Assembly: GCA_949284685.1 (NCBI GenBank)
Contig: CASDWE010000003.1
Span: forward strand, 1-64,000
DNA: 64,000 nt
Source of the DNA: an uncultured bacterium
Lineage (GTDB): Bacteria > Bacillota_I > Bacilli_A > RFN20 > CAG-826
Reading direction: 5' to 3'
Positions 20,265 through 49,754 of this stretch are shown here, piece by piece; the first letter of the stretch is position 1, and each line of letters starts with the position of its first letter. The notes under the pieces were generated by a model, which worked only from the letters and a program-made list of their open reading frames with translations, was not told the DNA's origin and made no database searches. Both the position numbers and the translations under genes were made by a program.

Positions 20265-20303
20265 TAGTCATAAATTAGTAATTAAATAGTATTTAATTAG
20301 TAT

Positions 20304-44931: not shown

Positions 44932-46746
44932 ATGGAATTTGATCAAAGTAAAATTAGAAATTTTTCAATAATTGCTCATATAGATCACGGCAAATCTACA
45001 TTAGCGGATCGTATTTTAGAAATGACTGGTGCGGTAGAAGAAAGAGAGATGAAAGATCAACTTCTAGATTCGATGGATTTAGAACGCGAAAGAGGAATAA
45101 CGATTAAATTAAATGCCGTGACATTAAAATATCTTGCTAATGATGGAGTTGAATATGTGTTTAATTTAATTGATACACCTGGACATGTTGATTTTTCATA
45201 TGAAGTATCGCGTTCTCTTGCTGCTTGTGAAGGAGCACTTTTAGTCGTTGATGCATCTCAAGGTGTAGAAGCTCAAACTTTAGCCAATGTCTATCTAGCT
45301 ATTGATAACGATTTAACAATAATTCCTATTATCAATAAGATAGATTTACCAAGTGCTCAAATTGAGCTAGTAAAAGAAGAAATCGAAAAACGAATCGGAA
45401 TAGATTGCACTAATGCATGTCTTGTCAGTGCAAAAAAAGGCACTAACATAAAAGATGTTTTAGAAAGTGTTGTTAAATATATTCCAGCCCCAAAAGGAAG
45501 TATAAACGAGCCTTTAAAAGCATTAATATTCGATAGTTTTTATGATTCATATCGTGGTGTGGTAGTTTTAGTCAGAATATTTGATGGAGAAGTTAATGTT
45601 GGTGATAAAATTTATTTATTTAATGCAAAAAAAGAATATCAAGTAACTGAAGTTGGTATAAGAACGCCAAAAGAAATTAAATTAAAAAAATTATATGCTG
45701 GCCAAGTAGGATTTATTTGTGCACAAATAAAAGATATTAAAGATGTTCATCCTGGCGATACAATAACTTTAAAAGATAACATGGCAAACGCTCCATTAAG
45801 TGGGTATCGAAAGATTAATCCGATGGTTTATTGCGGCTTGTATCCAGTTGATAGCGATGATTATCAAGCATTAAAAGAGGCTTTAGAAAAGTTATCTTTA
45901 AATGATGCTTCTTTATATTATGAAGCTGAATCATCTCAAGCTCTTGGATTTGGATTTAGATTAGGATTTCTAGGCCTCTTACATATGGATGTTGTTCAAG
46001 AACGTTTAGAAAGAGAATATAATTTAAACTTAGTATTAACCGCTCCTAGCGTAATTTATAAAATAAATTTAACTAACAAAGAAGTTTTGTATTTAGATAA
46101 TCCAAGCAAATTACCTGATATGAGCAAAGTCGATAGTATAGAAGAGCCATATGTTCTAGCAAAAATTATGTCGCCACAAGAATACATCGGACCAATCATG
46201 GAATTGTGCCAAGATAAAAGAGGGATATATAAAGATCTTAGCTATTTTGACGATACAAGGACGATTCTTACTTATGAAATACCTTTATCAGAAATTATCT
46301 ATAATTTTTTTGATAAATTAAAGTCTGTTACAAAAGGATACGCATCATTAGATTATGAAATTAGTGAATATAAAAAATCAAATTTAGTGAAACTAGACAT
46401 TTTATTAAACGGACAAGTTGTTGATGCTTTATCTAGTATAGTTTATAAGCCTAGTGCATATAATCGTGGATTAAATATAATTCGTAATTTAAAAAATATA
46501 ATACCTAGACAACAATTTGAAGTTCCAGTTCAGGCTTCCATTGGTGGAAAAGTTATAGCACGTGTTGATATTAAAGCGGTCCGAAAAGATGTTTTAGCTA
46601 AGTGTTATGGTGGGGATATCACTCGTAAAAAGAAATTACTTGAAAAACAAAAAGAAGGCAAAAAAAGACTTAAAAAAGTTGGTTCAATTGAAATTCCTCA
46701 AGAAGCATTTATGTCAATACTTGCTATTGATGATGAGAATAATTAG
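44932..46746 (+). CDS. lepA: Elongation factor 4 (LepA)
   Basis: Ribosome-associated GTPase that back-translocates or aids ribosome assembly. 604 residues. GTPase motifs are AHIDHGKST (about 14-22), [18 protein letters not shown] and [11 protein letters not shown]-like domains follow, and the LepA-specific C-terminal domain has [42 protein letters not shown]-type sequence ending in [16 protein letters not shown]. No SD is seen; a TATAAA/TAAAAT box ends 9-11 bases before the ATG, compatible with a very short leader. Confidence 0.97.
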
Positions 46747-46765
46747 TAGATTTTTAGTATTCATA

Positions 46766-46793
46766 TTGAATAGTCGATATTTTTTTATATAAT
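46766..46793 (+). promoter_or_regulatory. Promoter of the Fic-like gene
   Basis: TTGAAT (46766-46771), a 16-base spacer and TATAAT (46788-46793). GAGGG at about 46803 provides the SD for the ATG at 46816. Confidence 0.75.
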
Positions 46794-46815: not shown

Positions 46816-48258
46816 ATGGCATATGATGGAATACCAATTCGGTTTACCGAAAATAAATACGCGACCAAACTAGAAGTCTCTAACGAATTAAAGACTCCAA
46901 TGATTGATGTTTTTTGGGCTAAAATTTTAGAATATAGGAAGCAATATTCGCGTGCTTTGCCACTTTTTTCTATTGATAAAAAAATATATTTTTATTGTTT
47001 GGCTCCAGCGGTTGCAAACAAAATTAATGACTGTGAAATGCGTGTTATTAATTTTTTAAGTAAATACAGCGGAATCAAAACCAATTATACGAATGATACA
47101 TCATTATTTACAAATAACTGTTATGTTAATATTTGCGAAAATATTTGTAAAAAATATAATTTTGATGTCGATGAAAATTATTTATCTATGCTCGTAAATC
47201 ATAAAATTCACGATAATAGTAAAGCATATTTTGTTTTAAATAATTATTTATCAGGTTTACAAACCGCAAGTGGTTTAATAGATAAAACTATTAATGAAGA
47301 CACAATCGCGGAAATATATTCTACAATTACTAATAATTTTGAATTAACTAATTTATATCGCGAAAAAGATAATTATCTTTCCCACGCTGTAATAAATCCA
47401 ATTTTTAATGAAGCACCATGTGGAATGATTGAAAAATTAATGGATGATTTTTTTAAATTTATCGATGGGTTTGAATGTAGTTATTTAGTCAAAGCCGCAG
47501 CAACTTATTATTATTTAAATCTCATAAAACCATTTGATGAATATAATCAAGAAATGGCAATTATAATAACTAAATTAGTTTTAGCAAAAAATAATCTAAA
47601 CGATTTAGCTTTCTTATTACCTCTTGAAGAAATGTTAACAAACGATAATCAAAATCTTGAAAAAGTATTATTAGAAGTTCAAAAAAGTGAAGATCTAACA
47701 TATTTCTTGTTGCATTTTATTGAAATTATTAATGAAGAAATAATGTCCTTGTTAAATAAAATGAATAATTTACAAGCATTAGAATTAAAAAACGATTATT
47801 ATGCTGAATCTTATAAAGAAGCCAATCTTAAAATCGAAGACGTTAAAGAAAATAACGTAGAACAAAAACAATTAAAAAATGAAATTATTAATCAAAAAGA
47901 TGATTCACAAGATGTAGAGAAAGAAATTTTTCAAAAAAGCCATAATGTTGAAACAAATAATGAATTATATCAAGGATTAGCAATATCTGTTTTGCCGCCT
48001 ACATTAAGTGAAAAGGATTTGCAAAGATTAGAAGAAAATCTTTTAGAAAGCGATCCGCAGTTAAAACATGGCCAAGCATATTTTTATGTTCGTCATTGTA
48101 CAATAGGAAAAAGATACACTATTGGACAATATAAAAAAGAATTAGGATGTGCATATGAAACAGCACGTACTTCAATGGATTTATTAGCAAAACTTGGCTA
48201 TTATCGTCAAGAAATGGTAAAAAATAAAAAAGTATATACACCAATTAAAAGAAAGTAG
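46816..48258 (+). CDS. Degenerate Fic-domain protein with C-terminal winged-helix-like region
   Basis: 480 residues. The middle (about 140-300) follows the Fic fold: NLYREKDNYLSH, PIFNEAPCGMIEKLMDDFFKFI and KAAATYYYLNLIKPF. The catalytic HPFx(D/E)GNGR motif is replaced by KPFDEYNQE (238-246): His, both Gly and Arg are lost, so AMP transfer is unlikely. A charged, probably coiled-coil stretch (about 310-375) leads to a C-terminal ~80-residue region (HCTIGKRYTIGQYKKELGCAYETARTSMDLL) that looks like a winged helix. It may be a DNA-binding regulator or scaffold. It has its own promoter and lies between lepA and hemW, where Bacillus has no such gene. Confidence 0.7.
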   Translation: MAYDGIPIRFTENKYATKLEVSNELKTPMIDVFWAKILEYRKQYSRALPLFSIDKKIYFYCLAPAVANKINDCEMRVINFLSKYSGIKTNYTNDTSLFTNNCYVNICENICKKYNFDVDENYLSMLVNHKIHDNSKAYFVLNNYLSGLQTASGLIDKTINEDTIAEIYSTITNNFELTNLYREKDNYLSHAVINPIFNEAPCGMIEKLMDDFFKFIDGFECSYLVKAAATYYYLNLIKPFDEYNQEMAIIITKLVLAKNNLNDLAFLLPLEEMLTNDNQNLEKVLLEVQKSEDLTYFLLHFIEIINEEIMSLLNKMNNLQALELKNDYYAESYKEANLKIEDVKENNVEQKQLKNEIINQKDDSQDVEKEIFQKSHNVETNNELYQGLAISVLPPTLSEKDLQRLEENLLESDPQLKHGQAYFYVRHCTIGKRYTIGQYKKELGCAYETARTSMDLLAKLGYYRQEMVKNKKVYTPIKRK

Positions 48259-48269
48259 GAATAAATATT

Positions 48270-48530
48270 ATGATGATTAATATGTTAATGTCTATAAACG
48301 ATCCAATTGCGATATTTTTGATAATTCTTGGCTGTGCTATTGTTATCGCAGCGGTGGCCTTAATTATTTATAAAGTTCTTCATCTAAAACTAAAACAAGA
48401 AGAAAAGAAAATTGATGAAGAAAAAGCGGTGCAAGAAGAATTAAATCGTGTTTTAGAACCAATTGACGACGAAAAATTAAGTCAAGATATTCAAAATTAT
48501 AAATCTGATGAAGATAAACCAAAGAAATAA
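48270..48530 (+). CDS. Small single-pass membrane protein, function unknown
   Basis: 86 residues. One strong membrane segment (IAIFLIILGCAIVIAAVALIIY, about 13-34) is followed by a highly charged cytoplasmic tail with a probable coiled coil (KQEEKKIDEEKAVQEELN). An AGGA about 11 bases upstream is a weak SD. hemW overlaps its 3' end by 23 bases in another frame, which supports its being translated. I do not recognise a family. Confidence 0.65.
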   Translation: MMINMLMSINDPIAIFLIILGCAIVIAAVALIIYKVLHLKLKQEEKKIDEEKAVQEELNRVLEPIDDEKLSQDIQNYKSDEDKPKK

Positions 48531-49711: not shown

Positions 49712-49716
49712 AATTT

Positions 49717-49743
49717 TTAGCACTTAGAAAAAGCAAGTGCCAA
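49717..49743 (+). promoter_or_regulatory. CIRCE operator 2, overlapping the hrcA SD
   Basis: TTAGCACTT - 9 bases - AAGTGCCAA. It lies at the transcription start, and its last bases merge with the SD AAAGGAGGG (49742-49750). The RNA form could also fold and mask that SD. Confidence 0.9.
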
Positions 49744-49754
49744 AGGAGGGAAAC

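Follow-up and report, generated by a model that had tools for sequence, protein, structure and literature searches.

FicL, a Fic-fold pseudoenzyme of Bacilli, and its possible association with TTAGTA repeat arrays at the replication terminus

Introduction

Plasmid Xer sites such as cer and psi carry about 100-200 bp of protein-binding accessory DNA beside the Xer core. TubR, of type III plasmid partition, acts on tandem repeats, and the sites of OmpR-type response regulators are 11-bp direct repeats of the form hexamer-N5-hexamer. The Ter macrodomain of enterobacteria and Vibrio involves MatP, which is reported from Dam+ bacteria only, and matS, a 13-bp site present in 23 copies over 800 kb (PMC3330122). 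Among Fic proteins, the related CbFic2, which carries a winged helix-turn-helix (wHTH), uses its HTH to bind DNA; the binding sites of CccR are palindromes, and this protein is a repressor of its own promoter (PMC10628234). AvrB has the Fic fold and lacks the canonical motif (PMC4454073). Here, a Fic-like protein (FicL) encoded in a 64,000-nucleotide stretch of DNA from an uncultured bacterium of the Bacilli (the window) was analysed along with its relatives and the repeat arrays found near its gene.

The ficL gene, its locus and its relatives

46816..48258, + strand: ficL, pseudo-Fic protein of 480 aa (ORF list, profile, alignment, AlphaFold/Foldseek)
48270..48530, + strand: small membrane protein of 86 aa, the usual gene 3' of ficL (in this place before hemW in 69 of 80 named loci)

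The open reading frame of ficL is real, and its product has one full-length match in the genome of the window. The order lepA - ficL - hemW is kept in nearly every relative read, which bears out the conserved housekeeping neighbourhood claimed in the original prediction. Those relatives that have names are MAGs of uncultured rumen and gut Bacilli, among them Candidatus Onthovivens merdipullorum. For ficL as a whole dN/dS was 0.046, with 0.038 for the Fic core and 0.015 for the winged helix, indicating strong purifying selection. In the other Bacilli families sampled, lepA mostly lies directly before hemW, or hemW is absent nearby. Part of family f25 possesses a short FicL relative of ~300 aa between lepA and hemW. 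It has in common with FicL the ~80 N-terminal residues, the D-x-T-Y segment and the winged helix (hhalign probability 99.9) and is without most of the Fic body. The gene between this short relative and hemW (L188:6473-7201, L190:6376-7089 and equivalents) encodes a divergent protein of the Spo0A type (Spo0A_C, E 4e-18). In the f25 operon promoter, TTTGTCGAA resembles a Spo0A box.

The genome of the window has seven further Fic-domain matches, and an intact HPFxDGNGR was present in 4 of the 6 fetched. With at least 4 intact-motif Fic proteins besides FicL (contig C2), this 1.1-Mb genome holds many for its small size. An intact Fic gene at lepA-hemW as ancestor of FicL was found in none of ~40 Bacilli loci read. 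A viral origin was likewise rejected, since viral contigs contained no relatives and nothing in BFVD matched below E 0.001. Further along the window, a CIRCE-like inverted repeat (TTTAGCACTT-N9-AAGTGCCAAA, 49716-49744) lies before hrcA, immediately 3' of a perfect TTGACA-N16-TATAAT promoter, representing ordinary HrcA autoregulation.

Fic fold and loss of the catalytic motif

47002..47760, + strand: degenerate Fic body, residues 63-315 (4rgl profile match over residues 65-314, Foldseek match to SoFic, alignment with intact Fic paralogues)
47527..47553, + strand: KPFDEYNQE, residues 238-246, remnant of HPFxxGNGR (His and Arg missing in 81 of 81 orthologues)

The Pfam Fic model scored 21.6 bits on this single protein, just under the 24-bit cut-off. 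A profile of 34 orthologues matched the Fic crystal structure 4rgl with an E value of 2.6e-12. The AlphaFold model of FicL has a pLDDT of 85, with most of the Fic core above 90, and its first Foldseek match, covering the full length, was SoFic (3zcn/3eqx; 415 columns, E 1.5e-8, prob 1.0). FicL thus possesses the helical core of the Fic/Fido superfamily, and the Fic-fold pseudoenzyme which had been proposed from the sequence withstood this check of its fold.

The HPFx(D/E)GNGR motif of active Fic AMP transferases is absent from FicL. Aligned with it is KPFDEYNQE, as originally proposed, and the loss of His, Arg and both glycines extends across the family. Among 81 aligned orthologues, the position of the catalytic His (238) is occupied by K in 64, R in 13, Q in 3 and V in 1, and that of the motif Arg (246) by E in 70, D in 7, L in 2, Y in 1 and Q in 1. 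The listed counts allow glycine in at most one sequence at position 243 and at most two at position 245. The motif is replaced by a conserved loop, [KR]PFxx[YF][NS][ED]E. No intact Fic motif was found elsewhere in FicL or in another frame; the orthologue counts show that the loss is no artefact of frame or position. The inhibitory helix (S/T)xxxE(G/N) of class II Fic proteins is also missing, as FicL has ICENICKKYNF where the intact paralogues have SSxAIExN in the alignment. Residues R182, D293, T295 and Y296 are invariant.

The conserved replacement loop, the lost catalytic residues and the low dN/dS together argue for maintenance, not decay. By its sequence, FicL is a maintained Fic-fold pseudoenzyme, and the loss of the motif indicates that it is catalytically inactive. 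The conserved loop and the four invariant residues would also suit a Fic core which keeps some other chemistry or senses nucleotides through the rewired loop, like AvrB. However, the catalytic His, the phosphate-holding glycines, the motif Arg and the (S/T)xxxE inhibitory helix are all gone, making this reading very improbable.

N-terminal domain, long helix and winged helix

46816..47001, + strand: N-terminal domain, residues 1-62, basic, made of three helices plus a beta hairpin (resembling an HTH in topology only)
47698..47886, + strand: long helix, residues 295-357, starting at the invariant D-x-T-Y (293-296) (model)
48001..48255, + strand: winged helix-turn-helix at the C terminus, residues 396-480, basic with a pI of 9.5 (models, Pfam, Foldseek, conservation)
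48154..48192, + strand: YETARTSMD, putative recognition helix (residues 447-459), almost invariant within the order (lost in genome G041)

The N-terminal domain found no match in Pfam and PDB sequence searches. About 80 N-terminal residues of FicL recur in the short f25 relatives encoded between lepA and hemW. What had been described as an acidic coiled coil is resolved into two parts, a predicted helix of 63 residues followed by a disordered acidic linker (pI 4.6). A Kinesin match in Pfam (15.8 bits against a cut-off of 29.3, in 1 of 34 orthologues) was rejected as coiled-coil noise.

The winged helix is the most conserved part of FicL, holding 17 of the 24 invariant alignment columns, and it gave Pfam matches of weak likeness to Penicillinase_R/BlaI in 15 of 16 members. 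Foldseek matched it with prob 1.0 but weak E values (0.006-0.06) to DNA-binding wHTH proteins, including TubR and the wHTH of SoFic itself; a PDB sequence search with the wHTH alone returned spurious matches only. The YETAR helix is retained in the short f25 orthologue. The winged-helix-like tail of the original prediction is therefore present and of a DNA-binding type, but it is not an addition, as SoFic and CbFic2 share the same architecture with a C-terminal winged helix.

TTAGTA arrays and the ficL promoter

46743..46759, + strand: direct-repeat array TTAGTA-N5-TTAGTA in the lepA-ficL gap, overlapping the lepA stop codon (in essentially all of 76 loci)
46766..46793, + strand: sigma-70-like ficL promoter TTGAAT-N16-TATAAT, just 3' of the array (consensus match only, 10/12)
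20275..20302, + strand: second array, intergenic, three imperfect TTAGTA boxes at 11-bp pitch (read in the window)

Motif EM was run on the noncoding sequence of 76 lepA-ficL loci, where the gap has a median length of 90 bp. TTAGTA boxes with an 11-bp pitch were found in essentially all of them, with a log-likelihood of 712 against 64-72 for shuffles. The array at the ficL promoter is also present in families f2, f3 and f5. When the distances between TTAGTA pairs were pooled over 957 kb, 11 bp occurred 50 times, 22 bp 18 times and 33 bp 10 times, and any other distance at most twice; a control word over the same 957 kb gave a flat distribution. The arrays are mostly intergenic (33 of 37), several of them in conserved gaps such as that between the convergent genes plsY and efp in several genomes. 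The promoter credited to ficL in the original prediction is plausible in its match to consensus, but such matches are no commoner than in shuffled sequence (35 against 34.5). The position of the array at the ficL promoter suggests autoregulation.

Arrays at the replication terminus and dif

In the genome of the window, the exact TTAGTA-N5-TTAGTA occurs seven times in five arrays, all of them on contig C3, which makes up 156.6 of 1112 kb. This contig holds the replication terminus, as seen from the flip of GC skew and coding strand at ~83 kb, and dnaA is far off on contig C2. The dif site was located at C3:83274 and an array at C3:83395-83422, about 100 bp away. A PemK/MazF-like gene (C3:83423-83965, outside the window) lies beside this array. 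In all eight genomes read for these features, dif is at or near the skew flip, with the array on its XerD side and on the opposite strand. In 19 of 19 genomes read, the dif-adjacent array sits at a fixed distance from dif (~95-145 bp), always on its XerD side and in the same orientation. Most FicL+ genomes (e.g. L375, L376, L377) have a DnaA-box-like TT[AT]TCCACA in the stretch from dif to the array.

Most genomes have several further arrays, spread over ~100 kb around dif. Of 51 arrays altogether, 36 are no more than 60 kb away from dif, where 10% were expected (p~2e-24, to be read with the relatedness of the genomes in mind), a concentration in the terminus region of the kind that marks MatP-like sites. 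A polar orientation around dif, KOPS- or Tus-like, was not seen, the strands being mixed. The arrays at dif and across the terminus suggest a role in terminus organisation or in dif recombination.

The location of the arrays bears on two other readings of FicL. It might simply be a transcription factor that controls itself and housekeeping genes in its vicinity, the clustering reflecting merely where its targets lie, and some arrays are indeed upstream of genes (tkt, dxs, ftsA-like). The arrays at dif and between plsY and efp, however, sit between convergent genes, and the distance from dif is strongly non-random, which leaves this reading quite improbable. FicL might instead serve mainly as an accessory factor of dif/XerCD in chromosome dimer resolution, comparable to plasmid cer/psi, with the other arrays secondary. 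The constancy of the dif array in distance, orientation and side speaks for this, along with the DnaA-box-like sequence next to it and a genome (G281) in which the dif array is the sole exact site. Against it, several extra arrays over ~100 kb around dif would be superfluous for dimer resolution alone, and the accessory role is considered improbable as the main function.

Co-occurrence of the arrays with FicL

The dif-adjacent array was present in all 19 genomes read from the FicL+ families f1, f3 and f5 and in none of 8 from the FicL- families f4, f6 and f8. As these FicL- families fall inside the same order, the pattern is more than a single clade split. In f2, where FicL is diverged, neither of two genomes has the array at dif, and the promoter array is present there (G034). 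In f25, where the promoter of the ficL relative carries a Spo0A-type 0A box, it was found in 0 of 6. Both families, f25 with its retained YETAR helix in particular, tell against FicL as the binder of the arrays. An exact dif-array pattern was matched in 37 of 395 Bacilli genomes, all from the FicL+ families f1 and f3, and in 0 of 342 others; the reversed control pattern gave zero matches at dif in the same 395. Within this class sample, 16 of 53 ficL+ genomes were without the strict pattern, which also counts against the link, though four of the 16 (G015, G316, G042 and G052) do have the array on reading. Counted against the reversed-pattern control, arrays were in excess in ficL+ genomes only (128 against 44, compared with 6 against 18 in ficL- genomes). 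In G041, where the recognition helix of FicL is degenerate, arrays are missing at the promoter, at dif and genome-wide. As the genomes are related, all these co-occurrence counts are not independent, and p-values overstate the case. The link between FicL and the arrays consists of this co-occurrence, mostly at clade level, and of the autoregulatory position of the array.

The arrays might alternatively be bound by another protein, e.g. a response regulator of the OmpR type or some unnamed nucleoid protein, with ficL merely one of its targets. TTAGTA-N5-TTAGTA has the form of the hexamer-N5-hexamer sites of OmpR-type regulators, the arrays could be occupied by a different DNA-binding protein from this clade, and the Spo0A-type box at the f25 promoter with the Spo0A_C gene next to it hints that the operon may answer to another protein. 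Arrays in convergent, non-promoter gaps (dif, plsY/efp) and their clustering at the terminus are nevertheless unlike a regulon. Moreover, recognition helix and arrays are lost together in G041, and the presence of FicL and of arrays agrees family by family. Another binder is accordingly judged rather unlikely, though it deserves more weight than the other alternatives.

Proposed role of FicL

The DNA side of the system, with its fixed array at dif, further ones across the terminus and one at the ficL promoter, is statistically strong and directly testable. On the protein side, the best explanation, somewhat more probable than not, is that FicL is a pseudo-Fic protein which binds the TTAGTA arrays, organises the terminus/dif region and regulates its own gene; binding by FicL itself and the effect of that binding are the inferred steps. 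The original prediction saw a Fic domain reused in a regulator of transcription or replication. Its DNA-linked role agrees with these results, but it was generic, and the evidence points specifically to the terminus and dif.

In the proposed mechanism, the C-terminal winged helix would contact DNA at the TTAGTA arrays, with one monomeric winged helix per 6-bp box, repeated at each helical turn. Since the 11-bp pitch corresponds to one helical turn, several copies of FicL may assemble in a row along the same side of the helix. Bound FicL might serve the terminus/dif region as a marker, bridge or anchor, in the manner of MatP at the matS sites of enterobacteria, and the dead Fic body with the long helix and acidic linker might form a platform for oligomerisation or partner binding.

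At the level of the whole order, it is a real possibility, held tentatively, that these Bacilli have a terminus-organising system of their own, unrelated to MatP/matS, in which a dead Fic protein acts together with TTAGTA arrays of 11-bp pitch anchored by dif. The open-access literature searched yielded neither a terminus organiser of this type from Bacillota nor a chromosomal role for any Fic pseudoenzyme; if true, the system would by that literature be the first of either kind. It would bear on how bacteria beyond the MatP/Dam lineage organise the terminus and couple it to division. It would also provide a clear case of an AMP-transferase fold which lost its chemistry and was retained as a DNA-bound structural protein.

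Comparison with known systems

In fold and domain order, FicL follows SoFic and the class II Fic proteins with a wHTH (3eqx, 3zcn; CbFic2, 8cil; CccR). It differs from them in being without the catalytic motif and the inhibitory helix, in its own N-terminal domain, long helix and linker, and in its fixed housekeeping locus tied to terminus arrays. The absence of the canonical motif is shared with AvrB, which is a plant-targeting effector without a winged helix or such a chromosomal locus. TubR (3m8e) is a winged-helix protein of tandem repeats and a Foldseek neighbour of the FicL wHTH; the fold similarity is weak only (E 0.011), and TubR is without a Fic body. The arrays resemble cer/psi in placing ~100-200 bp of DNA of a protein-binding type by an Xer core site, but here the site is chromosomal dif, the boxes are tandem TTAGTA on the XerD side, and extra copies occur across the terminus. 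The likeness to MatP/matS lies in short repeated sites, here intergenic, which are limited to the terminus around dif, and in a single proposed DNA-binding protein. MatP itself is unrelated, with no MatP entry among the Foldseek matches listed for the FicL model, and the sites here are hexamer arrays of 11-bp pitch which extend over ~100-200 kb, one of them fixed beside dif.
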